Shown here in pieces: positions 3,585 to 49,294 of a DNA stretch of 64,000 nucleotides. A program made the position numbers and the translations under genes. The DNA lies in assembly GCA_014871385.1 (NCBI GenBank), contig CM026426.1, forward strand, positions 59,744,084 to 59,808,083, written 5' to 3'. Source of the DNA: Ceratodon purpureus (taxonomy: Eukaryota > Streptophyta > Bryopsida > Pseudoditrichales > Ditrichaceae). The notes below the pieces were generated by a model. The model saw nothing but the letters and a program-made list of their open reading frames with translations, was not told where the DNA came from and made no database searches. The first letter of the stretch is position 1. Every line of letters begins with the position of its first letter.

Positions 3585-3864
3585 ACCACATTTTTCCTAC
3601 GATTTGAAGAAGTCCACCCAGAATGCAGTGTGCGGCAGAGAGCCTTTGAGAGGTTGAAGCCGTGGTGGGTGCGAAAACTAAAGGAACGGAATTCATGTTG
3701 TATATATCATGTCGAGATGGACATGATGAAGGTTGGATTAAGCAACCTCAGAGAGAAGACCAGAGGACTGCATGCACAGATGACATGTGTTTGTGACTGT
3801 CAAGTGTGTACAGGCGATGCGGAGGGGGTTTGTTGTGCACACGACCATGTTTTCAAGCAAATAA
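3585..3864 (+). pseudogene. Gene P exon 2: Cys-rich part, interrupted
   Basis: The exon begins after the acceptor at 3584 and encodes a stretch with CCIYHVEM and a Cys-rich cluster CVCDCQVC. Such clusters are typical of the zinc-binding region of large transposase-like proteins. Coding stops abruptly at HVFKQ, where the 18.6-kb element starts at 3865. The frame continues at 22439: joining the flanks with one ATAA copy gives FKQ-ITLMWES and then the next Cys block. Gene P was therefore whole when the element landed, apart from earlier nonsense changes. Confidence 0.65.
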
Positions 3865-3891
3865 AACACCATATTCGTTATTTTGGGAGAT
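3865..3891 (+). repeat. Left terminal inverted repeat of 18.6-kb element
   Basis: It starts AACACCATATTCGTTATTTT and pairs exactly over 27 bases with the right end at 22412-22438. The inner 14 bases (3878-3891) are repeated inverted at 3897-3910 after a 5-base spacer, forming a hairpin found only at this end. ATAA precedes it. Confidence 0.85.
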
Positions 3892-4847
3892 CTATCATCT
3901 CCCAAAATAATGCATTAGGTCAGGTCCAGTTAAAATGGGCACAATGGTCCCATACTTGGCAAGGAAAAGCTTATAAGCAATTTCCATTAATTTGGGACAT
4001 GATCACAAAGTACTAATGGGAAATGAAAGAAGGTAGTGGTTTACTAGAAATATTTGAAAAAATACAAGGTAGGTCGAACCACCCTAAATGAACATCAAAC
4101 AAATAACAAGAAATGGACACAACGGATATGCTGGGAAATCTTATATTATATATATGTGTGGAAATACAAATTAGGTCGACACTTCTTAAATGTTGAATCC
4201 GTGACAGGCTCTTTCAGACCTGTACAAACAATCAAGTTGTTCGACTAACATAGCTGCCTACAGTTTCCAGAGTATGATATGCAATCCAAGAACATACGGA
4301 CTTCAGTATAGTCCCATGCCAACAAATGTATGTTATCAGCTCTACTTCAGAGATCCAAACTAGGAACTTCAACGCTAGATGTCGTTTAGGTCGCCTCGAC
4401 CTAAATGGCTGTTATGTGGCAGTACATATGATATAGAATCAACGCTTTAGGGTACTAAGTAAAAATCTACACAAAGAACTATAGGTGACCTGTTGGTATC
4501 CCGCACTCGTAAAGTACGAACTTCAACGCCAAATGTAGTTTAGGTCGCCTCGACCTAAACTGTGGCCTATAATGTGGTACACATGATAAATAAGGAATGG
4601 ACTTAAACACTTAAGTAGTGTTACCTCCAACAAAATATATGTAATTTGCTAGTATTCAAAACATAAATACGCTAGAACTAATACGCTATAACTGATTAGG
4701 TCGACTCGAGCTAAACATCTACCTTTGTCTAGAAAACATAATGTTGGATGAAGGGACAAACGAAATTCAGTTCAGTCGTCTTCAAACGAATATAAGCGAT
4801 CTCACTAAATTCAGAACTTCAAGACCACCAACTTCAAAGCTACATGT
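3892..4847. other. Left subterminal zone with GGTCGA palindromes
   Basis: No gene is seen. Palindromes of the form TTTAGGTCGA-N-TCGACCTAAA lie at about 4385 and 4539. A hybrid form (GGTCGA in one arm, GAGC in the other) is at about 4695, and degraded versions are near 4067 and 4172. This zone is the 3-prime flank of gene A. The same palindrome class recurs near the right end, so these could be subterminal sites for the transposase; that role is inferred. Confidence 0.6.
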
Positions 4848-6539
4848 TTATTCAGAATCCGGAGACACAAATCTCTCCAAGGAGGCCTTTATAATGTCCA
4901 GTTGTTTCAGTGGGATCTTCAGCGTTGGATCCTTGCCCACGCCCCGCTCGTTGACAGTTTTTTTAACTTTGGATTTCCAAGCTGTTATGACTGCATCAGT
5001 ACTCTGCCACGACTCGGGTGCATCCTTCTCAACTGTCCAACGAAGTCTCCCATCCACATCCCAGCCGGTATAGAATTTCAAAACATTTTCATCTCGGGAA
5101 ATTGGGCGGTAGAACTCTACTTGGAGCGTGTTTGGGAGGTCAGGGTTCGAATTAGGGTCAGTCAAGGCCCTCGCAAGCCAGAAAGGACGATCGTCTTCAT
5201 TGCAGGGTCGAAGCGCTAAGAAGTAACCTGCAAAAAGGTCTCGCGCAACACGGAAGGACGGTCCTGGGCGATCTCGTTTGTGACCAACAAAGTGATCATC
5301 CTCTGCGAACTCCTCGCGCAAAGTTCCATCTTCCTGAAACTCGTCTTCGACGGAATGAGCGAGCCAAGTGGATGGCCAGAAACCATGCTCCAAGGTGGGG
5401 ACTGCATCAAAGGGGATGGAAAGAGCCTCTTTAACATCGTTCCAATAGTATGAGACTGGCTCATAGATTCTTCTGGACTGGACTGAATCCGAAGATAGCC
5501 TCTCCCAATGATCTACAAAACCCGACAAGCCCTTAATCACATCAGGCAGGTGCCGCATCTCGCGAGGCGCCACGGCACAAGGAACACCACAGGGCCATAA
5601 AGACCGACCTTCTGAATCCTCCTTCCACAACTTGATGCCACAACCATCTCCTTTTGGCAACCAGTCGTCGTCGTGACAGAAGATTTTATACTTCATGACT
5701 GGGCATCCTGAAGAATCTACATAGAATTTGAACTGATGAGCTTTAGTGTGACCCATTAATGTATCGTCGCCATCAAGCATCCACTCCGCGATGAATTTCT
5801 TGAAATCTGGGACCTCCTGAATGAGATGAGGAATTGTTGGTACAACTTCATTTTTCATGAAGGACTTCATGAGGAGAGGTACTGTGGGGAAGTCCTCCCT
5901 CCGCAAAGCCATGCTCCATTGCCCAAAAAGGGCATCAATATCGTCATGAGTATGGCCGACCAGGTTGAAATTCACGTACACTTCGCAAAACACCCGCTTC
6001 GCGACTAATAGGGACCAGAATGAAAATACAAATCTATTCTTGTTATCACTGACAGCGTTATCCATTTGGACGTTAAGAATGGGAGGCAAGGGTTTGGCAG
6101 CAACAGGAACCTCAGGAGGAGGGCCAAGAGGATCCAAACACATCTCTGAACCATGCAAAAGCGCGGCATACAATGGGTGGGATGGATTTTCTTGAAAGAG
6201 TTCCCTAGAGGTGGATTTAGGGGGTGACTCAAGATCCCGAAGGAGCTTCGCAAACGATCCAACCGTGTAATTAACGTCGTGTGAGTAAATGTCAAGGCCA
6301 TAATGGGCGTAACGCTGGTCCACATGCCCATGAGCAAGCATTCCGGTGACAGCGAGAGGAAGCTTCATGAGACCGTCTAAGTGTTTGACCTTGTGGGATA
6401 AGGCCGGCGACGCTGTCTTGGAGTGGTCCATCTTATCATGCATAATTGTAAGAACTTCATGAGGAGTAGCCTTCGACCTGAATCGATATAGGTAGTACAA
6501 GTCCCTATGCGCCATTGCAGAGTCATTGTGCAACCTCAT
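4848..6539 (-). CDS. Gene A: DUF7869-type transposase, main part (563 aa)
   Basis: The 563-aa frame from ATG 6539 contains the hallmark blocks of DUF7869-type proteins: HDKMDHSKTA near residue 40, MDNAVSDNKNR near residue 160, and VGHTHDDIDALFGQW near residue 195. The family is linked to transposons and is thought to have an RNase H-like (DDE) fold, with the Asp and His of these blocks as candidate catalytic residues. An in-frame TGA (6552-6554) separates it from the upstream frame 6552-7130, yet the domain reads on across it. Copy 2 has the same TGA and is nearly identical, but is interrupted by a hAT element. This is the likely mobilising enzyme of the 18.6-kb element; excision chemistry is unproven. 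Confidence 0.75.
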   Translation of the reverse strand: MRLHNDSAMAHRDLYYLYRFRSKATPHEVLTIMHDKMDHSKTASPALSHKVKHLDGLMKLPLAVTGMLAHGHVDQRYAHYGLDIYSHDVNYTVGSFAKLLRDLESPPKSTSRELFQENPSHPLYAALLHGSEMCLDPLGPPPEVPVAAKPLPPILNVQMDNAVSDNKNRFVFSFWSLLVAKRVFCEVYVNFNLVGHTHDDIDALFGQWSMALRREDFPTVPLLMKSFMKNEVVPTIPHLIQEVPDFKKFIAEWMLDGDDTLMGHTKAHQFKFYVDSSGCPVMKYKIFCHDDDWLPKGDGCGIKLWKEDSEGRSLWPCGVPCAVAPREMRHLPDVIKGLSGFVDHWERLSSDSVQSRRIYEPVSYYWNDVKEALSIPFDAVPTLEHGFWPSTWLAHSVEDEFQEDGTLREEFAEDDHFVGHKRDRPGPSFRVARDLFAGYFLALRPCNEDDRPFWLARALTDPNSNPDLPNTLQVEFYRPISRDENVLKFYTGWDVDGRLRWTVEKDAPESWQSTDAVITAWKSKVKKTVNERGVGKDPTLKIPLKQLDIIKASLERFVSPDSE

Positions 6540-6551
6540 TTTCTTAGACCA

Positions 6552-7130
6552 TCACAGGGACGCCTGAGATCCTGTTAACGTCAACTTCTTCTGCCACTGG
6601 AACTCATCACATTTTGAGCAACGAGCGAAGTTGTCTCCTGCCCGTTTGACGTAATATTCTGGATAGCTAAGCCTCCTGATCTTGCTCAAATTAGAAGCGG
6701 ACATAGGAGGCAATCCACAGTCCGTTAGATGTTCATCAAGGATCGGAATCTGTTCCTTCCATTTGAAACTGGAAGGCAGAACTTTAGCTACAACTGTCTC
6801 CCCTGAAGGCAGAACACGACTCTTGTGGGGCATGTGGTCGGCATGCTTGTCAAGGATGGCCCCTAGGACGGCAGTTGCTACCACTGTGTGATTTCGAGGT
6901 TTACGTAAACCAGTATTACCGTGAAATTGAGCTTCGAAACCAGCAGCAGCATACTTGGCATTTCTATAAAATGTACTGGAGCTCATTCCCATAATCTTCA
7001 TCCAGGCGAAGGGGCAAACATCTATGCCCTCCAGAGTCACCACACTCCTCCCCGCTGAATTCTTGTGAATCTGTCTATGCACGTCGAGTTTTATGTGGTT
7101 ACGGAACTGCACTGTGGTCTTGTCGTACAT
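6552..7130 (-). CDS. Gene A: upstream part with zinc-binding region (192 aa)
   Basis: This frame is in the same phase as the 563-aa part and ends at a single TGA 12 bases before its ATG. It includes a basic N-terminus, a helix-rich middle and a CSKCDEF motif near its end, the zinc-binding lead-in usual before the DUF7869 core. Just upstream is a strong splice acceptor (CTATTCTACAG, about 7137-7147 on minus), so this is probably exon 2. The TGA may be a real nonsense mutation, a readthrough site, or evidence that only the 563-aa part is translated. Copy 2 differs by one amino acid. Confidence 0.6.
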   Translation of the reverse strand: MYDKTTVQFRNHIKLDVHRQIHKNSAGRSVVTLEGIDVCPFAWMKIMGMSSSTFYRNAKYAAAGFEAQFHGNTGLRKPRNHTVVATAVLGAILDKHADHMPHKSRVLPSGETVVAKVLPSSFKWKEQIPILDEHLTDCGLPPMSASNLSKIRRLSYPEYYVKRAGDNFARCSKCDEFQWQKKLTLTGSQASL

Positions 7131-7223
7131 ACGCGACTGTAGAATAGAGATTTTATCTCTAGGATAGTGTTGGACGCATAGGTGAGCGCAGCACGTGTTT
7201 GCCGCTACAGAGTTGATTGATGG

Positions 7224-7685
7224 CTAGGTCATCAGAAACTCAGCGTGACGTGATATAGGTGGGGGGGCATTCCTAGAGGAGTTATCATACGATCGGGTAC
7301 GATCTCCCAGGGATCGGTTACGCTCCGCAACCCAACGGTTATACACATCACGTTGACTATGGTGCTCTAGGCTAACTCCATCCAGATAGACGTGGCTGAT
7401 AGGCCACGTTTTGAAGGAGTACCTCCAATCATCCTCTGACTCTTCTTGGACCAAAGAACGTGATACCTGGACGACGACAACGGAATCACCAAGGGGACCA
7501 ATTGTGTCAGATACCAAGCTGGACCGTGGGTTCCGGATCAAACCCTCTGCTAACGGGATATTGTCGTCACTATATATTGTTACAGTCTTGTTCTGCCATT
7601 GTCTTGAGGGTACAACCACGAAGTCTGGAAGGTCTGGGTTTACGGGCACTTCAATGGGTACCTCGTCATCTGAGACATAGTCCAT
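7224..7685 (-). CDS. Gene A: first coding exon (about 153 aa)
   Basis: ATG at 7685 opens an acidic, Asp/Val-rich protein segment conserved in copy 2 (46429). The reading frame ends at 7224, but it probably splices to the acceptor before 7130 first, since the two frames share phase. The donor could not be fixed. Copy 2 has eight C bases where copy 1 has seven (near 7261), which shifts the last residues and would matter only if that stretch is exonic. Palindromes fill its leader at 7781-7990. Confidence 0.55.
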   Translation of the reverse strand: MDYVSDDEVPIEVPVNPDLPDFVVVPSRQWQNKTVTIYSDDNIPLAEGLIRNPRSSLVSDTIGPLGDSVVVVQVSRSLVQEESEDDWRYSFKTWPISHVYLDGVSLEHHSQRDVYNRWVAERNRSLGDRTRSYDNSSRNAPPPISRHAEFLMT

Positions 7686-7780
7686 TGTACCTGGAATGCA
7701 ATAGATCCAATTTTATGAGAACATATTATACTCCTTGAAGAGAATTCATCTTTAAATTTGAGAACTTATCCCAGGCGCAG

Positions 7781-7990
7781 TTTAACTCGAGTCGAGCTAA
7801 ACTGTTCGTGGACTATGGGAAGCATGAGTTTAGCTCGAGTCGAGCTAAACTACTGCTGCCCTTTAGATGCAGAAGTTTAGCTCGACTCGAGCTAAACTCA
7901 TGCTGCCCTTTGGATACAGATGTTTAGCTCGAGTCGAGCTAAACTCATGATGCCCTTTGGATGCAGCACTCTAGCTCAACTCGAGCTAAA
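7781..7990. repeat. Cluster of five 21-bp palindromes upstream of gene A
   Basis: Copies start at about 7781 (one arm altered), 7829, 7876, 7923 and 7970 (altered). Each consists of TTTAGCTCGA, one centre base, TCGAGCTAAA. They are spaced 47-48 bases apart, while the spacers show only partial similarity (CATGCTGCCCTTTGGAT-like). Copy 2 has three in the same place (46219, 46266, 46314). The position just upstream of the gene A start suggests a regulatory or recognition role. Confidence 0.85.
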
Positions 7991-8587
7991 GTACCGTCCG
8001 CAAAAAGCGGCGCTTTAATAGGTGCTTCCATCTTCGGAATTCTAAGTCGCAGACTCAGAGTACGCTTACGGTGTCCGCTCTAAAACGTCTGTAAGAAGTA
8101 AAGAGAGACACGGCAAATACACCATGACTTGAAACAATGGAAAGCATACAACAACCAGAAATCAATGATGTGTATTGATGATCGGAGAAAACTAAAGAGA
8201 AGACGTACAAGAGAAACGGCGCAATACAGCTTCCGCCCAGAAAACAACCACCTCCAAGTGAGCGCCGAGAGCTCCTACAAGCGAGAGAAGCAAGTGAGTA
8301 GAGAAAAGACTTCGAGCGGGGACGATTCCAGAGGTCATTCTCTAACGTGTGACCGTTTTCATGCCGCTTGAGTTTTGAAAATAGGCGGGAATCATGCATG
8401 ACCATTCGACCCTCCACATTTCGGGGTGTGAGAAAGCGCGGGAATTACCACTTTCCAGACTTCTCGGCCCTTTAGATAGATGCCGATGCGAAATATTTGG
8501 TGCATTAAATCAAATGGGATGGGTTGGAAGTCCCTATAGCGCCAGACAGAGTGTTGACTTTTGGCCGCGAACTTTTCTTCCTCTATC
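7991..8587 (-). other. Conserved leader or promoter region of gene A
   Basis: This GC-balanced block is conserved in copy 2 (45622-46200) with scattered substitutions. Overlapping reading frames exist on both strands (8055-8417 minus, 8129-8371 plus), but their proteins change between copies at ordinary non-coding rates and match nothing known. It is best read as promoter plus leader of gene A, with transcription leftward. Confidence 0.45.
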
Positions 8588-8673
8588 AGGGTTCAGGGTT
8601 TAGGGTATAGGGTTCAAGGTTAAGGGTTTAGGGTCTTAGGTCCAGGGTTAAGGGTTTAGGGTATAGGGTTAAG
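8588..8673 (+). repeat. Degenerate TTTAGGG (telomere-like) repeats
   Basis: The stretch contains GGGTTTAGGG, GGGTATAGGG, GGGTTAAGG and related heptamers, a decayed form of the plant telomere repeat. The same block, inverted, lies at 45542-45621 in copy 2, so it is an inherited part of the element and not a chromosome end. It marks the border between the gene A leader and AT-rich DNA. Confidence 0.8.
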
Positions 8674-9469
8674 GCATTTCTAGGGACATTAAATATCTCG
8701 TACATAGAATAAAATTAAATCAAAAATTGTTTGAACCTATTTGAATTTCGTGAGTCAGGTTGATACAGGGAAGTATATCGTTGCAAATATTCATACCTCC
8801 ATTTACTAAATATGTATTTTTGCTCGATTTCATTATTATATATGATATATGAAATCAAATCATTATATGTGAATTCATGAATAGTTCTTGATAGACCTTG
8901 GTAGATATGTTTTTAAATTTAGAATTATTTATTTATTCTACATATTTAGTCAGATATAATTATCATGTATATATATTCATGTACTTTTATTTATGTCTCT
9001 ATTTATTTCATAATGTGTTCTTTACGCCGTGAATGGTGTAGATTTGTTCTTTCGTTTCTGGAACTCTACATCTTAACATGTATATTTTTGATATACATGT
9101 TAGTATTATAATATGAATAATATAATTATATATTCATTTACAAGTAGGTACTAATATATTCATTAACAATTTAATGTCCAATTAAGAATAGTATGAGAAT
9201 AATAAACTATAATCTAATGTATACAAATCTTAAAATGATATACAAGTATATTCAAGTATATACGAAATACATTGTTAAAAATAATAGTATTAGATTATAG
9301 AATTTAATTCATTTCTCATGGCAAATTATATACGTTTTTTAGAAGATTGAATTTTTAATATTTAATCATGAGAAGCAAATATTTAAACCATGGTATGCCT
9401 TGTATGATTGGCATGGGGTGAAAGTACGTTGACCTAAATGTAAGCCTAATATTCTTAAAGTACATGATA
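8674..9469. repeat. AT-rich DNA with a duplicated arm
   Basis: No gene is seen. The part from about 9100 to 9418 is a diverged direct repeat of about 9480-9800, both ending in a shared block that contains CCATGGTATGCCTTGTATGA. Copy 2 appears to have only one copy of this arm, so the duplication may be specific to copy 1. Confidence 0.55.
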
Positions 9470-9895
9470 GTATCATAATTTAATTATAATATAATAATAT
9501 AGTATAGTATACCAAGGCACTAATATATTCATTTACAATTTTATATTTAATTATTTATTATAATACGAGAATAATAATCTATATTCAAGTATATACAAAA
9601 TTTAAAAATGATATACAAATATATTCAAGTATATATACGAAGTACATTGTTAAAAATAAAAGTATTAAATTATAGAAATCAATTCATTTATTATGGCAAA
9701 TTCTTTATATTTTTTAAAAGGTTTATGGTTTTTTATATTTAATCATGAGAAGCAAATATTTAAACCATGGTATGCCTTGTATGATTGGCATGGAAATTAC
9801 ACAAACCTTAATTAATTCATTAATGTTCTACCTTGACTTCTACTTGTACAATTTTATTACATTCTAATAAGAAAGTGGAATGTTTGGTTCATTCA
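9470..9895 (+). repeat. Left arm of long inverted repeat around gene B
   Basis: This AT-rich arm matches the reverse complement of about 11190-11620 over roughly 430 bases by eye, including CCATGGTATGCCTT and ATTCTAATAAGAAAGTGGAA. The two arms enclose about 1.3 kb with gene B. The same arrangement is present in copy 2 (about 42950-43380 and 44690-45110). Confidence 0.7.
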
Positions 9896-10262
9896 TTTTA
9901 TAAAAAAAAACTCATAAATTATGGATTCAAATGAAACGTATTAAACCAATGATCATAATTATAATTGTAGTATTAATATATAATATCGGGAAAGGCTCTA
10001 GATGCTTGTCTAAGCATACAATCCCATTAATCAATTCTTTAATAATAAATTAAAATGTCACATTTAAGTAAATCCGGACTTTCAAAAGCCCACATCGGTC
10101 AAAGTCCCGTTACCGAGTCTGGTCAAAGTCCCCTTCGTTACTCTGGAACATTCGGCTTCCCGCCGATGCCGCTTCATAAGCATAAGTTCCTTTGGGCGAC
10201 GAAACAGTTGTTTCATTCGTAGTTTCCCTTCTGTTTCATCTACTTATAGTTCATTTGCTGTG

Positions 10263-10598
10263 ATGAGGAGGTCGGGCGGTGGTTTTAGGGTGTCAAGTTA
10301 CCCGCAAGACGAGTGGGAGGTGGTTGTTTCCCCACAAGGAGTGGAGGAGCTTCGTCCCTGGTTTATGGCGGTGGAACGCGCCCGTGGTCGCGGCGTAGAG
10401 ATTCCCCCGTGGAACCTCATTGCACGCCTAATGCAGCCTGGTGTGGAGTGGGATTGGACTATTGCACATGGTCTAGAGCAACTGGAGATTATGAACGCTT
10501 CCAACATCAAGTTTCCCCTCACCTCCGGCGAGGGCTTCTCTATGGCTGATTCTAATGAGGAGGGGAGCGTGGATTTGGGGAGCCCACCACATGAGTGA
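10263..10598 (+). CDS. Gene B: small conserved protein of unknown function (111 aa)
   Basis: The ATG at 10263 starts a protein with a basic N-terminus, a Trp-rich middle (ELRPWFM, VEWDW) and an acidic tail ending near SPPHE. It is unlike any family I know. The frame is open in both element copies (copy 2 at 43981-44316, minus) although about a tenth of residues differ, with no stops or indels, which suggests past coding constraint. It lies between two long inverted arms, and promoter-like DNA (10130-10260) is conserved too. GAGTGAG at its end could be a splice donor, so more exons to the right are possible. Confidence 0.5.
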   Translation: MRRSGGGFRVSSYPQDEWEVVVSPQGVEELRPWFMAVERARGRGVEIPPWNLIARLMQPGVEWDWTIAHGLEQLEIMNASNIKFPLTSGEGFSMADSNEEGSVDLGSPPHE

Positions 10599-11189
10599 GT
10601 AGGTGAATTGTTATCTCCTCAGAACCCTTAACCTTGTCCTCAGTTTGATGTTTTCATAATAATAGATTGCGTTTGCTGTATGTATTGCGTAGAATTTTAA
10701 TGGCTGATGCTGAGTTCGTTCTGATTGTCAGGAGGATGAGTCCTTGCTTTTGACATTCACTTTTCCGTTTTAAACCCTAAACATCATACCATTTGATCCT
10801 GTTTTTCTCTTTGCTCCTGAACTTGCAGGTATCTTCGATATACTTCTACGATTTTACTTTTTGCTGCTAATCACCTCAGATATGGAATGGGGACTTCAGG
10901 AGTAGTTAGCAGGACCGTTAGATTATACAATATTTGGAAACCATAGATGTTAAAACAGATGACTTTCATCTTTTGGTAACTTTCGCTGATGGTGTTTCCC
11001 GTGTGGATTGTAAACTATTTTTGGAATGGAATGCCTTCAAAACAGGGTTCTTCTAGACGAAAACCAGTGTTTCATCTGATGCTTTCATATTTGTATATTT
11101 CGTATTCTAATATGTCCATGCTATCTAGTAAATGAAGTAGTTAATTTTGTTTGAATCTTTGAATTATGAATTTTGTATTTTAAAATTAT
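10599..11189 (+). other. Conserved region downstream of gene B
   Basis: The stretch is retained in copy 2 (about 43390-43980). It contains a splice-acceptor-like TTGCAG near 10830 but no clear coding frame. It may be the 3-prime untranslated part, or further small exons, of gene B. Confidence 0.35.
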
Positions 11190-11620
11190 GCAAATTAAGC
11201 AAGCATTCCACTTTCTTATTAGAATGTAATACAATTGTACAAATATTAGTCAAGATACAACGTTAATGAATTGATTACGATTTTTGTAATTTAATGCCAA
11301 TCATAGAAGGCATACCATGGTTTAAATATTCGCTTCTCATGAATAAATATAAAGAACCATAAACCTTTTAAAAAATATAAAGAATTTGCCATAATAAATG
11401 AATTGAATTCAATAATTTAATACTTTTTTTTTAACAATGTACTTTGTATATATATTTGAATATATTTGTATATCATTTTTAGATTTGTGTATACTTGAAT
11501 ATAGATTATTATTCTCGTTTCATAATCAATAACTAAAAATAAATTTGTAAATGAATATATTAGTACCTTAGTATACTATATCATATTATTATATTATAAT
11601 TAAATTATGTTACTAACATG
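11190..11620 (-). repeat. Right arm of long inverted repeat around gene B
   Basis: It is the reverse-complement partner of 9470-9895. The pairing covers AT-rich sequence plus the recognisable CATACCATGG block, which makes this a large potential foldback structure about 2.1 kb across. Confidence 0.7.
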
Positions 11621-13250
11621 TACTTTAGGAATATGATGATTATATTTAGGTAAATATGTTTCCAATTTGAGTATATGAAATTCATTATCATTGCAAATAG
11701 TGTATTTGAATTTGATGCTTAGTCAAATAATTACAAATTATTATTACAAAATTGGAAGAAGCATTATTGAATTGATTAAAATTTAGTTAATTCAAAAAAT
11801 TTAAAAATCAAAATCTAATGTAGATTCAGAAATGTATATAAATGCAAATACAATCAAAACCCTAAACCAACTTCACATAATGCAAGCATGCTGTGAAGCA
11901 TTGTAAAATATTACCAATACATTTCATCAAAACCCTGAAAAAACGAGTTCCCTATCCTGTTTAGGTTTCATTGAAACTCACACTGGGTTGGTAACCTCAA
12001 CTCCATTCACAGTACACATTAAGGGTCATGGTTCTCCAATTCCATGTGAGTTATTGGAGCCATCATGGTGAATTCTTCTTAAGGTAAGAAAGAGCAGGTT
12101 TACCAAACCATATGGGATTAACAATATGGAGACTGAATCGCACTATCTATCTTTAAAGTAAATTCCTATAAAAAGTTATTTTCACTTTCTCACTACCCGA
12201 ATCAGGTTCATAAAAATAAAATAAAAAAAGGGCCAGTAATATTTAACTTGCAATTCTTACAAATATAAATAATACCATTCAGTGATTCTGATATATCTAA
12301 AATTATTATTCCGTAATGAAAATTAAATTTTTAAATTGCGGTATCTATGTACATGCTTGTATATGAATTCTGAATTACCAGAATCTTTGAAATGGCATGG
12401 AATTTATTTGGAATAGAATTCTAATTCATAATTGTACTATCATGTACTTTATGAATAATATGATGATAACATTTACGTAAATATGTTACCAATAGGAGTA
12501 TAGTAAATTAATTTTCATTCTTAACAGTGTATTCATATTAGATGCTTTCGTAATATAATTACAAACTATTATTTAAACTCTAATCTTGTGTAATTAAAAT
12601 TGAATTTGTCTTTGAACAAATTTTAACTTCGTATATCTCAAAGGATTATGATGTTAATTAAATTTGAAGACGTCGCATATTCAATTAATATTAGTAAAGT
12701 TAAAATATACGCATGTCAAACCAGATATTCTACTTTCTTGTTATAATGTGGTAAATTTCTGCACATATTTGCTTCCTATGAATATTTAAAAAAAAGTAGA
12801 ATATTTACTACTCATGAATATTTGTAGTTTCGTACAAATTAAGTTTCTCTTATTAAAAGCTAATTCGTACAAAAATATTAGATTCTCATGAATATATTAT
12901 TAAAGTAATATAATTGCACCTTATTAGATAGTAATGAATATTTACGAAATTTTAAATATTTGCTTCACATGAATAAAAATAAAAATTTCAATTCTCTAAA
13001 AATTGTTAATAATTTGCCTACTTAGATTTTGTGCTTGCTCAAGTGTCTACACCATTACACAATATCATATATTAATACTACAACAATGATGTCCATTGAT
13101 GTAGGACAATTCATTTGAATCCATAATATGAGGATTTTATTTTTGGAATATATATAAAAGAGTAAGGAAATTAAGTTCTGTTTATATATTTTAAAAATGC
13201 GAAAAAGTATTGTTTGAACCGAGGTTAAAATTACAAGTTTAAAAAAAATA
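11621..13250. other. AT-rich non-coding DNA
   Basis: No gene is seen. The sequence is conserved with copy 2 (about 41215-42950, inverted) with many small changes. A moderately GC block at about 11950-12130 is better conserved than its surroundings, but shows no open frame retained in both copies. Confidence 0.5.
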
Positions 13251-14612
13251 ATAAATTTTTTTAACCCACGGGGACGGGTCATTGAACCCCGCGGCGACGG
13301 GGCCCCACGAATTGGCGGCGCGGTCATAGGCCCCCGCGAGGGCGAGGAACATCCTCCCGCAGACCCTGTCCACGCACTTGGTTTTCTTTTGCATTTCTCT
13401 GTCTGTGGCGTTTTCGTGGTGGTTCTGGTGGTGGCGAGAATTCATTTCCTTTGATGAATCGTATAAGTGAGGGATAGTTATGCACGGGCGAGTTCCGAGG
13501 GTATACGAAAGCATGTGAGCACCTTGAATTAGTTTGCTTCCTTCCAGAGGGTGTGAGCGCTCATTGTTTGGAGTAGTTTTGGTGTTTGGAGTAGTTTCGG
13601 GTTAGGGTTTAGCTGTTTCTTCATGGTTTGAAGTCTATTTGCACGGAGGTTGTTTGAGGTGTTCTTTGAGTGGGTCTTGAGCTTGTTCGAGGGTTTGTAC
13701 AGAGATTCTTAAGGTGTTTCGTAGCTGGGCTGTTTCTGGTTCTTTAGGGTTTAGTTGTTTCGTTTTTTTTTCTCCCTCTACGGACTTCGTTGACCGTGTA
13801 CAAAGGCGTCCACTTCGGCTTGGGGTTGTTGGAGGCGACAATCACGGTGCTGAAGAAGTCACAGGTTTGTATCGAAATCAACATTACTGGTTATTTGTTT
13901 TTTGCAGTTCAATTCCACTAATTTTTGCAATCTAGGGTCTTCTCAAGTGAGCTTGTTCGTTATTCTTTTTATCAGTTGCACGCATGTGGTGGTTCTTTTC
14001 ATTGCTTATTTGATTTCCTGTTGGAATTGTGTCTGATTTTAGTACTCCAGAATGAAGGATTAGGTGAATTCGTTACTGTGTGTCTAGTTATGTGTTTTGT
14101 CTCTATGTTCGTGTGTCTTTCTGTGTGTATGTTTTGTGCCTTTCTTCGTGTGTCTGTCTGTGTGTATGTTTTGTGTCTCTGTTCGTGTGTCTCTCTGTGT
14201 GTATCTCTCTCTGAATTGTATTTGTCTTGTGTATGTCGGTGTCTGTATGTGAATCAATGTCTGTTTCTCTACATGTCTGTGTAATTGCATGTGTGTATTA
14301 TTATATGCTTGCAATAGCATATTTCCATTCTTGTGTATTACATGTCAACATCATTTGCATTGCGTCTTGGTCTACGAACTATGTTTTTTGGGATTTCTAT
14401 CTAGTTACAGTCCCATTAGAATCTAATTATGGGGCTTTTTGAAAATACCGTACTCGTTTTTATTCCGCCTTTTTCGGAACTACTGTAATGGGATGTGAAA
14501 CAGTTCTTTTATTCTCGGATTTGTGTTCTCACCTTCGAAAATCCTTCATTTCTGCACGCAGAGCACGTCTTATCAGCTCTACAACGGAGGAATCTGAAGG
14601 AAGATCAAAAAA
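13251..14612 (+). promoter_or_regulatory. Upstream region and leader of gene C, with TGTGTC microsatellite
   Basis: A GC-rich patch (13260-13370) marks a likely promoter, followed by T-rich leader sequence. A TG/TC-rich microsatellite at about 14085-14290 (GTGTGTCT units) appears inverted in copy 2 at 40190-40460. A good acceptor (CTGCACGCAG) lies at about 14563, directly before the short exon with the gene C start codon, so the leader is probably spliced. Frames crossing the microsatellite look like artefacts of the repeat. Confidence 0.5.
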
Positions 14613-14623
14613 ATGACCGTTAG

Positions 14624-15367
14624 GTACTAAATATTTATGCAAATTGCGTAATCAATCCCTCAAAAATCAAGAACAGTTTAGCTCGAGTCGAGCTAAACTG
14701 CGTGCGGAAGACAACTCTCGCTTGACAGTTTAGCTCGACTCGAGCTAAACTCACATACAACATGTATTAAAAAGATCAATAAAATGAAAATACTTTAAAA
14801 ATAGTCCATTAATTGCTACAGTTTAGCTCGACTCGAGCTAAACAGTAGCCAAATACTATTTTGTACAGTGCAGGTAAGCTCGATTCGCGAGAAACCGCAG
14901 TGTACTAAGTAACATTTGGCCACAGTTTAGCTCGAGTCGAGCTAAACTGCTTGGGCTCCCACCTTGGGAGCTCTACAGTTTAGCTCGACTCGAGCTAAAC
15001 TTCTCGGGCCTTCACCATGAGAGCTCTACAGTTTAGCTCGACTCGAGCTAAACTGCTTGGGCTTTCAGCATGGGAGCTCTACAGTTTAGCTCAACTCGAG
15101 CTTACTGCTTGGGCTCCCACCATGGGAGCTCTACAGTTTAGCTCGACTCGAGCTAAACTGCTTGGGCTTTCAGCATGGGAGCTCTACAGTTTAGCTCGAC
15201 TCGAGCTAAACTGCTTGGGCTCCCACCATGGGAGCTCTACAGTTTAGCTCGACTCGAGCTAAACTGCTGGGATGTCATGTGTCATTTTTTTAATAGAACC
15301 AACATTTAGCTCGAATCGAGCTAAATGGCTTCAAATTTCTCTAATGGTAAAAGTCTCCTCCTTGCAG
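14624..15367 (+). repeat. Intron 1 of gene C packed with palindromes
   Basis: The intron runs from the GTACTAA donor to the CTCCTTGCAG acceptor. It holds about eleven palindromes, at 14677, 14729, 14822, 14936, 14979, 15032, 15084 (altered), 15137, 15190, 15243 and 15305. From 14936 on they recur every 43-62 bases with spacers like GCTTGGGCTCCCACCATGGG. Copy 2 intron 1 (39135-39838) has about eleven with quite different spacers, so the palindromes are kept while the spacers are not. Confidence 0.85.
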
Positions 15368-16808
15368 TGAGGAGAAAGCAAGGGTACTTGAGGCGCTTCA
15401 ACATTTCTTCAAGCCTGTTCCTATCTCGGATTCGGATGACGATGACGGGGATGACTCAAGCACATTTGAGCCGTGGACCTTCAAAGACCCCTCGAAGGTC
15501 CAAAATTGGACATTGCGATGGGTTGCACACACACCATATCTAACGTTCGCAACCATTTTCAAGGGTGAAGTCGATGATCCCCACGTCATCGACATGGATA
15601 CAAAGGTCACCGAGTTTGACCATAAGGGGAGAGATCAAATAAAGATCCTCTGCTCATCTATGGGGAGTAATCCATACCTCTTCACCATAGTAGTAGACGT
15701 AGCAGAGAACCTCTTCGACTCCATTTCCTTAATGGAAAGTCTGTCCAATTCACCTTACGACGAGATAGTGACCACAATGAGGCAAGAAGTACTGGACAGG
15801 AAGTGGGCAACCAAAGATGGACGAACTCTCCCGGCGAAATCCCTAGCGTGGAAACTGAGGAATGTTGTCAGCACCCTTGCGCTCCGCGCAACGGAGGCAA
15901 AGGTGAAGCAGAACCTTGGAAAATATCATATTGACGTTTTTGGAGTGACAGCAACCGGGAGCCAAATGGGAAGCCAACAGACCGGACGCAGTAGGGGGAG
16001 AGCAATAGTTCCTTCCCAAAGCCGGGGCGCTTCTGCAAACTCCCACACCCCTCTCACCATTGAAGAAGAAAGGCCTCGAGAAGAAAACCGACAAGCCAAA
16101 GCCCAAGAAGGACTTGCTCTTATCTGCGGAGGACTTGGCAACAAGTTTGAACTCTGTTCTCGGGGAACTTCCAAAGGTGAACAAGGTTGGAGAGGTCCTG
16201 GACTTCGATAATGCCAATCGAATTTACCAGAGTTTATTCGCTGATTGCCAGGACGAGTTCGTCTTCAAAACGAATGGGCAACAGAAGAAGTTCAGTGAGG
16301 ACGTGACGCGGTGCAAGCCCGCACCGGCCCATTGGACTATCCGTGCATATGAGAAGCGGGGCATGGAGGAGATGAAGAATTACTTGGTCAACATGCCGGA
16401 TAGGACACAGAAGCAAACCCTGTGTCTGATGCCAGACACGAAGGCCCGACCTCAACAAGAAGAGGATCTAAGGGGTTGTACATTTAACATCATCAACGGG
16501 CAACACAGCGTTGCGGCGTCCAAATCTCTCATCGAGGATAACGCCAGTGAGGAGTTGGTGAGGGACTTCAGGAGGTGGGATGCGTACATTGTTTGGACGC
16601 TTGATGTAGATAAGCTACGAAAGATCTCAGCATTTTATAATCGGGTGAACCATCTCGCACCCTTTAAGCCAACTTGGGCGAGCAATATACTTGCCTCAAA
16701 AAAGTGTGGGTGAAGTATGGTAAGCCCCAAAAGAAACATGCTGCCGCTGGTGCTGCCGAGCGCAGGAGTACAGGTCCAAAAAGTAATCCAGCGTCGAAGA
16801 CGTACGAC

Positions 16809-16977
16809 GTAAGTTCACAGATTCATTAGCATTAGCAGTTTAGCTTGACTCGAGCTAAATATTGATAATCTTCTTTGTTTTCAATATTCTGGTGTATCTC
16901 GATCAATTTAGCTCGAGTCGAGCTAAAGAGTAGTTCCGAGACAGCATCATCTAAGGTTTCTTCATGTGCATATGCAG
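16809..16977 (+). repeat. Intron 2 of gene C with two palindromes
   Basis: The donor is GTAAGT and the acceptor ATATGCAG, phase 0. Palindromes start at 16839 (one arm base changed) and 16907. The matching intron of copy 2 (37496-37693) has three. Confidence 0.8.
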
Positions 16978-18351
16978 AACTTTGTGAATGCAATCAGGGA
17001 GCGCTTCGCTATGATCGATGTGGCGAAGCATCAAGCCATGGTGGCGAAGAAGGGAGGGAAGAACACTATCTCCCTAACAAATGAGCTGTTTATCATCACA
17101 TCCAGTGATGAAACATGGGACCTGTGGAAGGAGGTGATCGCGTCTGCGGCATGTGGTGGACTCATTGATCCCGACACCGAAGCTCCTCATAAGAAATTCT
17201 ATGAGAAGAAGGGGTTCGTTCTGGACAAGGATCGGACGCTTCCGAGGGAGTTCTTCAAATGGCTTGGGAACTTGACAGAGGCAGATCACCAGAAGCTCTG
17301 TAAGCACATCTTGCATAAGTCTGGGCCAAGTCGGAAGTACACGTATCCGAAGGTTACCATCAAGCAGAATACGAGTGTATTGGAGGACTGCTACTCGGTC
17401 AAGGAGTGGGCGGAGCGGAGAAAACGTAAGGCTGTAGCTCAAGCGGAGTTCAACAACATTAATCCAACGCTCCATCTATTCAAAAGAGACGGCTTTGATG
17501 TACCCGCTTGGAAGCATGTCAAGAAGACTTACTATGTCCCCAAGGAGTCGAAGCACGTTCTGCTTGATTGGAGTATTCCAGACTCGTACTGGACTAACTC
17601 CAGAGCTACACAGTTCCGCAACAAGTCGGCCAAGGATCTCTCCCCATATGCGGTTGAGTTCTTTAAAACCTTCCTGAAGGTTCGACATGCGTTTCAGTGT
17701 CCTTCAGCTGAGATGTGGTTCCTCCCATTCATCAGGGAGCCTCGACTCGCCTTCGGATCTTGGCCCTCCGATATATGGAGGTTGGCGGGCGGCGCACTCA
17801 CATTCGAAATCATCGACTTCCGGTTCCTCCCAACCTACAAGACAAGGCACAACTACACTTTGGAGAACCCCTTCTTCATGGAGTTCTTCAAAATGATCGA
17901 TGAGTATGGGCAGCCCCAGTTTCACGATGTTCGCCACTGGCTTCTTATTTGCGGAGACGATGAGGACTTCGCCCAGGTGCTCACTTGGGTGGAGCGAAAC
18001 ACCTTGAGTGGTCGTAGAAGAGTCCCTTCTGAGTATTTACCCGCTCCTAACGAGCGACTCGGCGGACACCCCCCAAAGAACAGAATCGCGATGGAACCCG
18101 TCAAACTCCTGTTTCTCATTGATGATAATGTACTTGAGAACGATGGGTCAACGCCAGAACCTCTGAGCAAGTACACAACTCCGGACCACCCACTATACAC
18201 GGACAACAGGAAGTTCAACGAAAGGAGGTACTCAATGTATCCATCCGAGTTAAGGATGGAGTTCTACCTGCAGGTCCACGACACTTTCTGCAGTACTGGA
18301 GGGGCGGTTTATCAGCTCTATGCTGGAACGAAGTCCCTCATGGCCGCCGCG

Positions 18352-18487
18352 GTAAGTTTCCACACTTTAGCTCGAGTCGAGTTAAATCGTTCTACTGTTT
18401 TGATCTTATGCACCATGTATGCATACACTTCCACACTTTAGCTCGAGTCGAGCTAAACCTCGTTTACCTTGCCTTTGTTTTTTTTAG
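18352..18487 (+). repeat. Intron 3 of gene C with two palindromes
   Basis: The donor is GTAAGT and the acceptor TTTTTTTTAG, phase 0. Palindromes start at 18366 and 18437. They lie entirely inside the 136-base intron. Confidence 0.8.
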
Positions 18488-19423
18488 ATGCTCTCGATCT
18501 CGGCTTTCGTGGTTGCGGATGATAGTGACTCGTCTCATATGATCGAAGCTCAGTCACTTGGATTAACTCTGGACCCAACCGATTTTAGTATCAACGCTTA
18601 TTATGTCGATATGGAACGCTTTCCGGAATATGGCAGAGCCGTGCGGAAAGGGAAAGGCAGAGCTGTGGAGGAGGGTGACGATGTTGATCTGGAGGAGGAT
18701 GCCCCTTCCGAAGAACAGACCCCCTCCTCCACTGCTGCGGACATCAGCAATGAGAGCGATGCGCCGCCTTCTGATCCGGTAAGTCAGACAGCATCTGAGG
18801 GTGGAGTGGGGAGAAGACTCAATTTCCCTGACGTCGACATTATACGTACGGACGATGAGAGACCGGGTTCTGCACCTGAGCTGGGATCCGAAAGTGGGAG
18901 AAAGACTGGCGGTGCGCGAAGTACTGGAAAGCCGGCACAGAAGAAGAAGAAGCCCAACCCTACAGCTCGGCAAGCCTCCCCGTTGGGGAGAGCCGCTCCC
19001 TCTCCGGATGTTCAAGCTCTTATCGCAGAACTACAGGCGTGCAGGGAAAGAGAGAAAGACTTACAAGATAAGATGGCGAGGCAGAGCATGGATATAGAGA
19101 AGACAGTGCAGGCGGCACTGCAGGGTGCTCTGCGAGGCATCAGTAATGCCCCTATTTTTCCGAATGCGGTTCCAGTTCTGCCCAACGTCCAGCCGATAGG
19201 TAACGCCCCACCTTCTCCGCGAGTATTTGAGATTTTGGGCTCCCCTACTAGTGGTGCAAAATTGCCAATGTCGGATCCGAGTCCCGCATCAGTGCCTGAG
19301 CCAAGCCATCATTACACCGACCGGGTCATGCGTGACCCTAGTCCAAGCCCGCCCCGTTCTCCCTCCCACAATCAGACTCAGGGAGATGCTCCCGAGACAT
19401 CTTCAGGTCCCTCCCAAACTTAG

Positions 19424-20009
19424 ATTTTTTGAACTCGGAATTTTGTAGATGAGGTGTTAATACCGGAGTAGTTCACTGAAATGTGCATTTTGTACCAAAG
19501 CAACTGTAATTAATAGAAATGGGCTATTCAGCTCAAACCGAGCTAAACTGTTCAACGTTTTACCAATCCCTTCTATGTCAGCTTCATTGATCACTCTCTG
19601 ATGATTCAATAGTTCTCTTGCAATGCCCAGGTCAGAAAGTACATGAGGAAGTGGACAATCTTCTGATCATGGATGATGTTGTCATGGCCCAAAACTGCGG
19701 ATGAGCCTGTACGCACAAATATGGATTTAGATGTCACGGCCTAATGTGCTCTTACCTTGCCACCGTGCGTAGAGGTCATTCCTGACGATCAACCCCAACA
19801 TTCGTTAGGGTTGATGGGTCCTGTGGAGGATCGGGATGTCGTAGAAGAACAAGCCGAGGATGTTCAAGTATTTCATCCATCATTATATCTTGTTGCACTG
19901 TTTCCTTGGGTACTGACTTGCCCTGCAATTGTCCTCATTGTATCATTCGTATAACTCCGTCCTAGTATAATATAGTAATGTCCATTTGTCATTGGTATTT
20001 CCTCTCTAG
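19424..20009 (+). other. Gap between genes C and D with a likely first exon of D
   Basis: A decayed palindrome lies at about 19528. A segment at about 19757-19867 encodes an acidic peptide ending in EEQAEDVQ, followed by a donor (GTATTT) at 19868 and an acceptor (CTCTCTAG) at 20009. Joined in phase 0, it leads into the frame of gene D. The true start codon of D was not found. Confidence 0.4.
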
Positions 20010-20798
20010 GTGCGCGAGGCATCTGGATGTGATGTAAGTTCTAGTGAAGAATTGAGTCCTGTCTCGACGCGACCTCAGAGTGGCTGGTTGAACGTGGTCC
20101 TCGACCTCAATGGAATACTCTGCTCCAGTACTCCTAATTGGCCTGGACAATCATACGTTAGCCATGACCTTAGCATCCACTCAGCGTCCAAGCCAGCAGT
20201 CGTGGGCCCCAAGCTTGTTTGTGTCAGGCCCAATTGCGCTGATTTCCTTCGTCGGTTGTCAACGTTTGCAACCATAACTGTCTGGAGTTGGATGAAGACT
20301 TCAACGACAAAAATGATCTGCGACTATCTGTTTGGTCCGATTCGTCCTGTCTATCCGCTCAGAATTCTAGGTCAAGAGGACTGTCAGAGAGTTCCTATGG
20401 GCGTAGATTTTCGAGGTCGTCCGGTATATATGAAGGAACCCGGGACTCAGAAGGAGATCTTCTTTAAGCCGATGTGTGATGGTCTCTTTCGTAAATTTGG
20501 TGGCTTATATTCCGAAGCCAACACCATTTTTATCGACAATAGTCCGATCAAGCACTGTCAGAATAATTCTCACAATGTCCTTTTACTCTCCACTTGGAAC
20601 AACGAGAATCCCGATGCCGCAGATGATCGTTTCTTGTTGTCGAAACTTTTGCCATATCTTGTAGACCTACACCACTTTGTGGGGACAATCGCTAGATTCA
20701 GGGCCGAGCGTCCGATGGGGAAGAAAGTGTATTATGATGACCGTTCTACCTGTGAACACTACGCTAAGATTAACGAGGCAATTAGTCGTAGACCATAA
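20010..20798 (+). CDS. Gene D: FCP1/NIF-like HAD phosphatase domain protein
   Basis: The exon begins after the acceptor at 20009 and ends in TAA. It encodes VVLDLNGILC, the HAD motif I in the DxN form used by plant NLI-interacting-factor (NIF) relatives in place of DxD. ATITVWSW follows (motif II region), then a Lys in EIFFKPMCD (motif III) and TIFIDNSPIKHCQNN, equivalent to the acidic motif IV. Canonical FCP1-type enzymes dephosphorylate the RNA polymerase II tail. With Asn in place of the second Asp, activity of this protein is uncertain. It is intact in copy 1 and absent from the truncated copy 2. A phosphatase carried by a transposon is unusual; its role in transposition is unknown. Confidence 0.7.
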   Translation: MREASGCDVSSSEELSPVSTRPQSGWLNVVLDLNGILCSSTPNWPGQSYVSHDLSIHSASKPAVVGPKLVCVRPNCADFLRRLSTFATITVWSWMKTSTTKMICDYLFGPIRPVYPLRILGQEDCQRVPMGVDFRGRPVYMKEPGTQKEIFFKPMCDGLFRKFGGLYSEANTIFIDNSPIKHCQNNSHNVLLLSTWNNENPDAADDRFLLSKLLPYLVDLHHFVGTIARFRAERPMGKKVYYDDRSTCEHYAKINEAISRRP

Positions 20799-21028
20799 TT
20801 TGGCATGATTTTGGTTCTTTACTTTGTTAATAGACATTTCTGAACTGCCGCGGAGCTATTAGTATATTGTACATCTTAACTACTTGCGTAATCTTTGTAT
20901 CCAGACTACTCCTTTTGTAATACAAAGTTTATATTTCTTTCTTGATCTATTCTGCCCCTTGCGACGAACCCTAAACCATTGCTGAATTATTGGTGGATGT
21001 ATGTTTCTATTCGCTTTATGTATTGCAG

Positions 21029-21953
21029 GATAATGCATGTCGAGCCTCAGTGGATTCTTTGAATAATGCTTATGGCTGCGGGCCCTCTCTACGTAGCAGA
21101 GGGCTTCTGTTGCAATCCGTTGCAACAGCGCAGTCCACGATGGACTACTCAACTATGGTTGTCGACGAAGGGGTTGTGGACAGCCCGGTTAACCTGTCCG
21201 TTCCCAAGACCCTCAAATCCCCTTCTCCTATGTGGCCACGGACCGTACTGCAGGTTCTATCTCCGAAACAACAGAGTTCTACCCCTACGAAGCGTGCTCT
21301 TTATAACAATGTGGAGGACATGCCGTCACCACCACCTACAAAGGTTGGTTTTCATTCCTCAGTATTCGCTTTTCATTCCTTTCTGATGTTTCATCCCGTA
21401 AGTTTCTTTCATGATGTTTCATTCTGATGTCCTTATTTTAGCTCGAGGCCACCTAAAATGATTGATCTTTTTATACTTTCATCTAGGTCTGGTTCTAGCT
21501 TATGTAGGCCTCCTCGTTCAAGGTCCGTTCGACCTTTACACTTGCACTCAGCAGTTTAGGTCGATTCGACCTAAACCGAAATCTCTTCCCAATGCTAATT
21601 TATCCCCTTTGCAGATGCCAAGGCTACGATCAACAACTACAGGATCCGGGGCAAGGAAGTCCGCCGACTCCCACTCTAAACCATCTAGTACCCGTCGCCA
21701 CTCTCTGCCAGAGTCAAGCATCGGTGACAGGCGTAGGCAGAAGTTGCAACGTCTTCTTGATAGTCCAATGATGCAGGTTGAAGGAATGTCGTGGACACGT
21801 CAGCGCCAACGGGAATTTGTCAAGTCAAGAATTGAGGCTTACGGAGGGACTCCATTACCATATAGAGGATACTATGTACTGTATAGCAATGGCGCAGACA
21901 ATGTAGACGATTATAAGAGTCGTCTGTGTTATTTCAATGTAATTATGTTTTGA
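21029..21953 (+). CDS. Gene E: two-exon protein of unknown function
   Basis: Exon 1 (21029-21343) follows an acceptor (TATTGCAG) and ends in AAG before a GT donor. The intron (21344-21614) holds one decayed and one good GGTCGA-type palindrome (21555). Exon 2 (21615-21953) starts with an ATG codon after TTTGCAG and ends in TGA. The protein is Ser/Pro-rich with SPxP-type motifs, then a compact Arg-rich block (DRRRQKLQRLLDSP, RQREFVKSRIEAYGG). No known domain was recognised. An upstream exon is likely but not resolved; it could also be a downstream part of gene D. Confidence 0.45.
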
Positions 21954-22411
21954 ATAAAACGATTGGTCTGTTTGTCAAATTTTCTCGTCTGCTATTTTTG
22001 CCTCATTGTCTTGCACACTTTTTGTGTTATTCAAATTTCCGAATGTAATTTATGTGATTGGACATTGCCTTTTATTGAAACCTTGGTTTAGAAAGGTAAC
22101 AAATAGTTACTACTAAAAATACTGGGGACGTGGTATATTCTTTTTCCTTGTTTATATTGCTTTAGGTGTGATCGACCTAAATGACTTAATCATCATCTCT
22201 CTTTAAACATGTTTTTAATGAATCAATGAACATTACTAAGTTTTCTCCTGTATGTTCGTGCATTTAGGTCCACTCGACCTAAATGACATGGACCTCATTG
22301 TTCCTTTAAGGTGTTTTTAATGCTTCAATATTGATTTCCGCAAGATTGAAGTAAATGGGAGGGGACGAATGTGGCCATTTCTCTACACGCTGATTTCCCA
22401 AATTCAAGAAT
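21954..22411. other. Right subterminal zone with GGTCGA palindromes
   Basis: Non-coding. TTTAGGTCGA-type palindromes or near-palindromes lie at about 22161 and 22263, mirroring the class seen at the left end. Nothing else was recognised. Confidence 0.6.
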
Positions 22412-22438
22412 ATCTCCCAAAATAACGAATATGGTGTT
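22412..22438 (-). repeat. Right terminal inverted repeat of 18.6-kb element
   Basis: It is the exact 27-base reverse complement of 3865-3891 and is followed by ATAA, the same tetranucleotide that precedes the left end. Confidence 0.85.
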
Positions 22439-48863: not shown

Positions 48864-48882
48864 CATGGTTGTCATAATGGAC

Positions 48883-49290: not shown

Positions 49291-49294
49291 TGAG

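Follow-up and report, generated by a model that had tools for sequence, protein, structure and literature searches.

A giant, probably Sola1-type DNA transposon with ParB/methylase-like and phosphatase genes in the moss Ceratodon purpureus

The window analysed in this study, a 64,000-nt stretch of the Ceratodon purpureus genome (362 Mb; contig CM026426.1, designated C6, positions 59744084–59808083), contains at its positions 3865–22438 an 18.6-kb element, the family of which was named E18. The element is a multicopy cut-and-paste unit with a fixed gene order and conserved coding, and it is likely to be a giant DNA transposon belonging to Sola, and probably to Sola1. Cut-and-paste movement can be ascribed with high confidence to its DUF7869 protein. 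Moreover, there is good reason to believe that the accessory genes, which include a ParB/methylase-like gene and a phosphatase gene, are required by the element, or of use to it, rather than being random cargo.

Ends, target site and copies of E18

Exact 27-bp terminal inverted repeats (TIRs) are found at 3865–3891 (forward strand) and 22412–22438 (reverse strand), while no such match was obtained in 100 shuffled sequences, and the tetranucleotide ATAA is located directly outside both ends (3861–3864 and 22439–22442), as had been reported in the original prediction. The element is flanked by the two pieces of gene P (3423–3864 and 22439–22852), a repeat found dispersed in the genome, with 40 or more relatives. 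The joined flanks (500 nt) were matched whole or nearly whole, at 88–96% identity, at all of the 40 scored places (290 first-look candidates). It had also been claimed that removal of the element restores the reading frame of gene P. The frame obtained by joining the flanks is weak as proof on its own and was dropped as such, since the removal of 3 or 5–8 nt also leaves open reading frames (ORFs) of 148–182 aa. The claim holds on other evidence: L046, the one paralog that was fetched, has ATAA only once at the junction, and its open frame of 170 codons crosses the site; it thus represents an empty site and shows that element removal restores gene P. In the window, gene P contains a TAG of its own, 28 codons past the junction; this TAG and the remaining differences from L046 (gaps of 3 nt and 9 nt, substitutions) sit elsewhere in the gene. 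The gene P frame continues into HIDYAENYTFVIQNEV, and its product is perhaps another transposase; a Pfam search with the two gene P pieces gave no match.

A genome search with a 25-nt core of the TIR (up to two mismatches allowed) yielded 181 forward and 181 reverse matches, compared with none on either strand for a control pattern run alongside. The 100 places listed include 32 pairs of neighbouring TIRs that face each other at a distance of less than 45 kb, 24 of them being spaced 15–20 kb; genome-wide copy counts given here are lower bounds. Ten complete copies, 17,562–18,970 bp long, were fetched and, together with the window copy, form the E18 sample (n = 11; C2c, C3b, C3c, C5a and C6a are among them). 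All ten have exact 27-bp ends and perfect 4-bp target site duplications (TTGT, GTAT, ATGG, TTAT, ATGA, ATGA, AGGT, AAAT, AAGA and GTGT), so that the collection of copies by their TIRs, proposed earlier as a means of defining the true duplication, sets it at 4 bp. This length, observed in 11 of 11 copies, does not match the duplications of CACTA (3 bp), hAT (8 bp) or PIF/Harbinger (3 bp) elements.

The proposal that the element carries at least five genes was borne out as well, as all 11 tested window ORFs were matched in each of the ten fetched copies, with order and strand conserved. The ends and matches to the tested ORFs are thus shared by all ten of the other copies, and the unit does not break up, with several frames being broken in some of the copies. 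Two copies located on different contigs, C3b and C5a, are 99.7% identical, which indicates that the E18 family has moved recently. In a genome search with the methyltransferase-like exon of the element (M exon), 85 of 597 candidates were scored, and 54 of these are located on C6, which makes up 30.5% of the assembly (hand count). Of the 36 scored M-exon matches on C1–C5 and on C6 below 56.56 Mb, 35 lie within 25 kb of a family TIR that faces them.

Coding content, related families and palindromes

The transposase gene occupies positions 4848–7685 of the reverse strand (ATG at 7685, stop at 4848–4850), and the DUF7869 domain recognised by the original prediction was confirmed by Pfam at 5670–6098 (PF25273; E-value, 1.3e-40; coordinates computed from the residue range), with the motifs DN...NK and GHTHDDID. 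The window copy has an in-frame TGA (6552–6554) and TAG (7224–7226). Introns and recoding were ruled out as explanations of these stops, as seven of the 11 copies have this frame uninterrupted for 955 codons (stop to stop). The motifs D(K/G)MD, QxDNxxxxNK and VGHTHxDID are kept in five DUF7869 proteins of the genome and are read as three putative acidic sites. In the 955-aa frame, D427/D430, D552 and D592/D594 are invariant among these five diverged proteins and fit a D-D-D core, with Asp 480, 637 and 826 being equally invariant. No match was obtained in a PDB sequence search with the transposase, and no relative was confirmed in viral contigs searched with a single DUF7869 protein and with a DUF7869 alignment. 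PF25273 gave 1,400 first-look candidates in the genome, 150 of which were scored, all of those listed being over the cut-off, whereas none of 14 control genomes was positive.

On the opposite strand, a gene with at least three predicted exons was found. The ParB-like exon (15351–16811) contains the motif IINGQHSVAAS and ends at the donor GAC/GTAAGT; it has a one-base gap or frameshift near 16030 in the window copy, at which the second copy in the window reads through. Since the transposase and ParB frames of the window copy are both broken, this copy would be movable only with proteins of other copies. The M exon (16978–18351) lies between the acceptor TATGCAG/AAC and the donor GCG/GTAAGT, with a motif-I-like stretch, LYAGTKSLMAAA, at its predicted end; a frame running out into a donor-like VS just past this stretch is also observed in the related families F966 and F678. 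The third exon (18488–19423; acceptor TTTTAG/ATG) perhaps encodes the end of the methylase-like fold, followed by a low-complexity tail. The ParB-like and methyltransferase designations are based on motifs common to four diverged families, and to this extent the earlier assignment stands.

The ORF at 20010–20798 (forward strand) encodes a NIF-type HAD phosphatase with the motif DLNGIL (PF03031; E-value, 6.1e-13), and a match to it is present in all ten fetched copies. The PF03031 scores of the E18, F966 and F678 proteins (49.2, 51.8 and 46.0 bits) are all above the gathering cut-off of 21.8. Of the earlier label, an FCP1-like phosphatase, the phosphatase part is retained, and the protein is better called NIF/dullard-like, judging by its fit to TIGR02251 (5.2e-7) over TIGR02250 (0.22), both of which lie far under the curated cut-offs. 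The DxD catalytic pair is not kept: in all three families the motif reads D-L/I-N-G-I/L-L, the first Asp being retained and the second being Asn. A PDB sequence search returned SCP1, SCP2 and TIM50 at E-values of 0.02 and up. ORF D (10068–10595, forward strand) is 176 aa long from stop to stop, lengthened to 246 aa by an internal duplication in four of the 11 copies, and has a homologue in F678 (45% identity over 66 aa; E-value, 4e-16) at another location within the element. Two further ORFs (20975–21950, forward strand) were matched in all ten fetched copies.

The ratio of nonsynonymous to synonymous substitutions (dN/dS), summed over all pairs of the 11 copies, is 0.21 for the transposase, 0.31 for the ParB exon, 0.33 for the M exon, 0.39 for the phosphatase, 0.51 for the third exon and 0.53–0.60 for the two end ORFs, compared with 0.74–1.05 in two noncoding stretches. 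Wrong-frame controls (five for each of six main ORFs) gave 0.70–1.66, except for one antisense frame (0.33–0.66), the low values of which are expected where third positions are shared. As the E18 copies are related to each other, these values are descriptive.

Other DUF7869 families of the genome, namely F966 (loci L037, L034, L031 and L043), F661, F678 and F1072, were represented by one copy each, with an additional F1072 ORF (L030). F966 shares with E18 49% identity in the transposase, 40% in ParB, 31% in M and 39% in the phosphatase, the order being kept in mirror image. Its ends, TTAA followed by [CA/GG]TCATATTCATTAAAATGGGAC, resemble the E18 end, and TTAA is located on both sides of the one F966 copy. 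The corresponding values for F661 are 45% (transposase), 27% (ParB) and 22% (M), and those for F678 are 34.5% (transposase), 20% (ParB), 21% (M) and 24% (phosphatase), with the order kept except for ORF D. At about 20% identity, the ParB and M assignment in F678 leans on order, motifs and weak blastp matches; that of the phosphatase is also based on Pfam. In the case of F1072, which scores higher to the Pfam profile, no ParB, M or phosphatase genes were found within 5 kb on either side. For each protein, identity to E18 falls in the same family order, F661 and F678 being nearly tied for M; it is therefore most likely that the genes have been inherited as a set. Dozens of PF25273 matches have a 678-aa frame and a score of 134.7 bits; this equality of frame and score, rather than a comparison of sequences, suggests a very recent burst of F678. 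To the right of the F678 genes (L045), a tandem array of at least 17 copies of a unit of about 128 bp was observed.

Palindromes accompany the genes of E18. Arrays of 23-nt palindromes are located just upstream of the transposase start (four, 7780–7944) and upstream of the ParB-like gene (ten, 14676–15326), and two palindromes lie in each of the predicted introns, the first of which separates the ParB-like and methylase-like exons (16838–16928 and 18365–18458). Three more are subterminal on the left (4384–4716; two GGTCG forms and one hybrid), and two, of the GGTC type, on the right (21554–22284). When up to three mismatches are allowed, the pattern GTTTAGSTCGANTCGASCTAAAC is matched 40 times in the window, each time inside one of the two copies, versus 0.01 expected. 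Palindromes ahead of both the transposase gene and the ParB-like gene, as well as the GGTCGA form near the right end, are present in 11 of 11 copies, and those in the predicted introns in ten. Of the 21 palindromes in C3c, none falls in a predicted exon, with exons making up 42% of that element. Genome-wide, the exact E18 palindrome has 2,154 sites, and the control has none. Of the 50 listed sites, which cover C1 and the beginning of C2, 39 lie within two TIR pairs and ten in a copy for which a single TIR is listed, so that in this part of the genome the candidate sites are nearly confined to family copies.

The palindrome differs between families, being TTTAGCTCGA-N-TCGAGCTAAA in E18, TTTAGCTCAC-N-GTGAGCTAAA in F966 and AGTAGTCAATTGACTACT in F661, which provides lists of candidate binding sites for three families. 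In F966, TTTAGCTCACNGTGAGCTAAA is found at the corresponding places (35 matches with up to two mismatches, none in 20 shuffles). The F661 palindrome lies about 1.1 kb ahead of the ORF for the transposase; two more precede the ParB-like gene, and each predicted intron holds one (five matches with up to three mismatches, versus 0–1 in 20 shuffles). Binding of the palindromes by a protein of the element seems reasonably probable, and a host factor is not expected as the binder of sites that change in sequence with the element family. It is unlikely that the palindromes are instead host-directed features, i.e., targets of silencing or methylation, or hairpins with a helping role in replication. 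Hairpin formation is possible for plain palindromes, and the E18 unit holds CpG sites (TCGA and CTCGAG), but the palindrome sequence is a different one in each of three families, at corresponding kinds of position, and the exons predicted in C3c are free of them. As a more specific version of binding by an element protein, the palindromes might tentatively be regarded as cognate, parS-like loading sites of the element's own ParB/methylase-like protein, one protein–site pair having evolved per lineage, which would mark DNA, switch two promoters and perhaps act in introns, working together with the element phosphatase on host transcription; E18 would then be a land-plant transposon that marks and regulates itself.

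Relationship to known transposons and role of the accessory genes

According to the available part of the literature, Sola elements have TIRs of 11–1124 bp, 4-bp duplications and a DDD transposase; they are recorded in the moss Physcomitrella, and some exceed 15 kb, most being 2–9 kb long (PMC10741241). E18 shares the 4-bp duplication in all 11 copies, and its exact 27-bp TIR is within this range (PMC10741241). The Sola1-1_Ec32 element of Ectocarpus, 21.5 kb in length, encodes a ParB-like and DNA methyltransferase protein (1104 aa) opposite the transposase (PMC12477816). ParB-methylase giant transposons are therefore already known from algae, and the earlier statement that such a combination of proteins is unknown is not supported. 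E18 resembles Sola1-1_Ec32 in its giant size and in an opposite-strand gene, which in E18 is ParB- and methyltransferase-like by its motifs and has the same strand and order in all ten fetched copies; the authors note that giant elements occur in organisms haploid for much of life, as mosses also are (PMC12477816). As duplication, size, strand and the domain pair suggested by motifs agree well with the published Sola1, the element is treated here as a Sola1-like giant. The two come from a brown alga and a moss and were compared by description, not by sequence (PMC12477816). In relation to the available description, E18 has in addition a NIF phosphatase, ORF D, palindrome arrays and a degenerate-looking methylase motif (PMC12477816); the part of the Sola literature at hand describes these elements without accessory genes, whereas E18 has them (PMC10741241). 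KDZ and EnSpm giant elements are, like E18, large eukaryotic transposons with extra genes (PMC12477816). They have other transposases, other duplications and a less fixed cargo. Apparently, the land-plant setting, the conserved phosphatase and the co-diverging palindromes are new, as they are not mentioned in the portions of the literature at hand.

Alternatively, DUF7869 elements might form a superfamily of their own, with 4-bp duplications and a ParB-methylase gene exchanged with Sola1. The fact that DUF7869 and Sola1 were matched through descriptions, and that the name DUF7869 is absent from a searched literature of 5.39 million papers, would fit such a view; nevertheless, duplication length, the putative D-D-D pattern, giant size, the presence of Sola in a moss and the opposite-strand ParB/methyltransferase-like gene all agree with Sola or Sola1 as far as these are described in the sources at hand, which makes a separate superfamily improbable.

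A number of findings weigh against the reading of E18 as a Sola1-type transposon with conserved accessory genes. The likely membership in Sola1 is an analogy with a published description and not a comparison of sequences. With regard to copies, C6a is the most decayed of those fetched, with most genes affected and no palindromes in the introns; one of the 36 M-exon matches has no facing TIR within 25 kb, ten of the 32 adjacent TIR pairs enclose no scored M match, and, among the 50 palindrome sites listed, one is in no recognised family copy. With regard to frames, only five of the 11 copies have the ParB exon frame (492 codons) without interruption, and the second window copy has its own stops in this exon (38276–38284); the C2c phosphatase frame has a break, the last ORF (X163), second of the two end ORFs, is interrupted by a stop in ten of 11 copies, and ORF D, with a noncoding-like dN/dS of 0.73, is under no measurable constraint. 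The exon–intron models were drawn from splice motifs alone. Among the related families, no phosphatase and no ends of F661 were found within the 19.5 kb fetched; F678 yielded no ends, no TIR and no palindrome array when these were looked for, and its ORF D sits elsewhere. In blastp comparisons of F678 with E18, E-values of 3e-4 for M and 0.002 for the phosphatase were obtained, with no match for ParB, and the F678 ParB matched that of F661 at only 0.007. Finally, the choice of the ParB/methylase-like protein in particular, over the transposase or a host factor, as the binder of the palindromes is a guess, and a slightly doubtful one.

Searches of Pfam, NCBIfam and PDB gave no relevant match to the ParB or methyltransferase parts of the ParB/methylase-like protein, the PDB matches of the ParB and M exons being at chance level (E-values of 0.06 and up). 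A tblastn search of a phage collection with the two E18 exons gave no match at E-values up to 10; the F661 and F678 ParB proteins matched five records and one record, respectively (E-values, 0.3–9), which were not used, and no relative was confirmed in viral contigs searched with the ParB exon alignment. In the available part of the relevant study, a ParB-CTPase fold fused to N6/N4 methyltransferases is described as frequent in phages, with a box II arginine needed for nucleotide binding (PMC12704722). E18 is similar to these proteins in having a ParB-like together with a methylase-like domain and a link to mobile elements, but differs from them in the absence of that arginine (PMC12704722). 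Read by eye, box II (GxRR or GxxR) is replaced by GQH[ST] in all four families, for which reason the label ParB-like, and not ParB, is used here. Likewise, the catalytic (D/N/S)PP(Y/F) is missing at the aligned place, where DFR, DLR, DFR and DVR are found in E18, F966, F661 and F678, respectively (also by eye); NPMY in F661 and DPAG in F678 occur away from it. As both the box II arginines and DPPY are missing, nucleotide switching and methylation may have been lost, and active DNA methylation by this protein appears unlikely from its motifs. Near the F678 cargo, an ORF of methylase-like appearance was noticed (L035:9410–9844, reverse strand; DLIIADIPENL ... DGAICLIYNTDQKLAKDI), which has no Pfam match.

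Starships and Pack-MULEs are also large eukaryotic transposons with extra genes, with other transposases and duplications and less fixed cargo. That the accessory genes of E18 are, as in those elements, passenger cargo, i.e., host or bacterial genes caught without a role in transposition, can be largely discounted: the ParB and methylase motifs do look degenerate, F1072 does without such genes in the 5 kb on either side and NIF phosphatases are ordinary eukaryotic proteins, yet genes, order and strand are the same in all ten copies, the set recurs at 20–40% identity in F966 and F678 (ParB and M also in F661), dN/dS among copies is 0.31–0.39, and divergence that runs parallel across families is not expected of random capture.

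If E18 is a Sola1-type transposon, its DUF7869 protein would be a transposase of the D-D-D (RNase H-like) kind, binding to the TIRs, cutting the element out and reinserting it at cuts staggered by 4 bp; DUF7869 would thereby gain a likely identity. The ParB/methylase-like protein would act as an element-specific DNA-binding protein, most likely at the family-specific palindromes, and its binding would lead to regulation of the element's own promoters or to marking of its DNA. The phosphatase would most likely act on a host protein, perhaps the RNA polymerase II tail, thus favouring element expression; going by family precedent, an action on host transcription is a possibility of modest weight. 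Our results suggest that the ParB-methylase gene described for the Ectocarpus Sola1 element belongs to a larger set of co-diverging components, namely transposase, ParB/methylase-like protein, NIF phosphatase and lineage-specific palindrome arrays, which is found in a land plant with recent copies. The suggestion, made in the part of the publication available, that proteins of this kind bind and mark their own transposon (PMC12477816) becomes testable.

Second window copy and neighbouring sequences

The second copy mentioned in the original prediction is present in the window, inverse to the first, and collinear with it over element positions 4751–17697 only. Its main part (36776–48863, reverse strand; element positions 5252–17697) is truncated at 36775 by an abutting satellite (31454–36774), in which a 168-bp unit is repeated about 32 times, and its remainder (63492–64000, reverse strand; element positions 4751–5259) runs off the window. 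Since the copy is cut by the satellite, the phosphatase-bearing right part is not shared, and the earlier claim of common order and landmarks holds for the rest. In the transposase tract (4751–7500 versus 46614–48863 and 63492–64000), the two window copies are 99.6–100% identical, with stops at the same places, whereas this tract of the window shares only 95–97% identity with the ten other copies; outside it, the window copies are mostly 85–98% identical (62–81% at 13200–15300). The near-identity has the appearance of gene conversion between the inverted copies, located on the presumed sex chromosome, or of an assembly effect.

Between the two parts of the second copy, a hAT-type insertion is nested (48864–63491, forward strand; 14,628 bp), which is not part of the E18 element. 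It has the ends CATGGTTGTCATAATGGAC and an 8-bp duplication, GTCCTTCC, and encodes a hAT transposase, with matches to DUF659 at 2.9e-34 and to the dimerisation domain at 5.9e-5. It also carries an ORF of 876 aa, in which a RING match is at chance level, and a kinase-like one of 557 aa (E-value, 3e-6, under the curated cut-off); it is thus another large transposon with extra genes. Beside the first copy, an ORF with a Pre-SET domain (23120–23563, reverse strand; PF05033, 1.2e-10) represents a histone-methyltransferase-like fragment.

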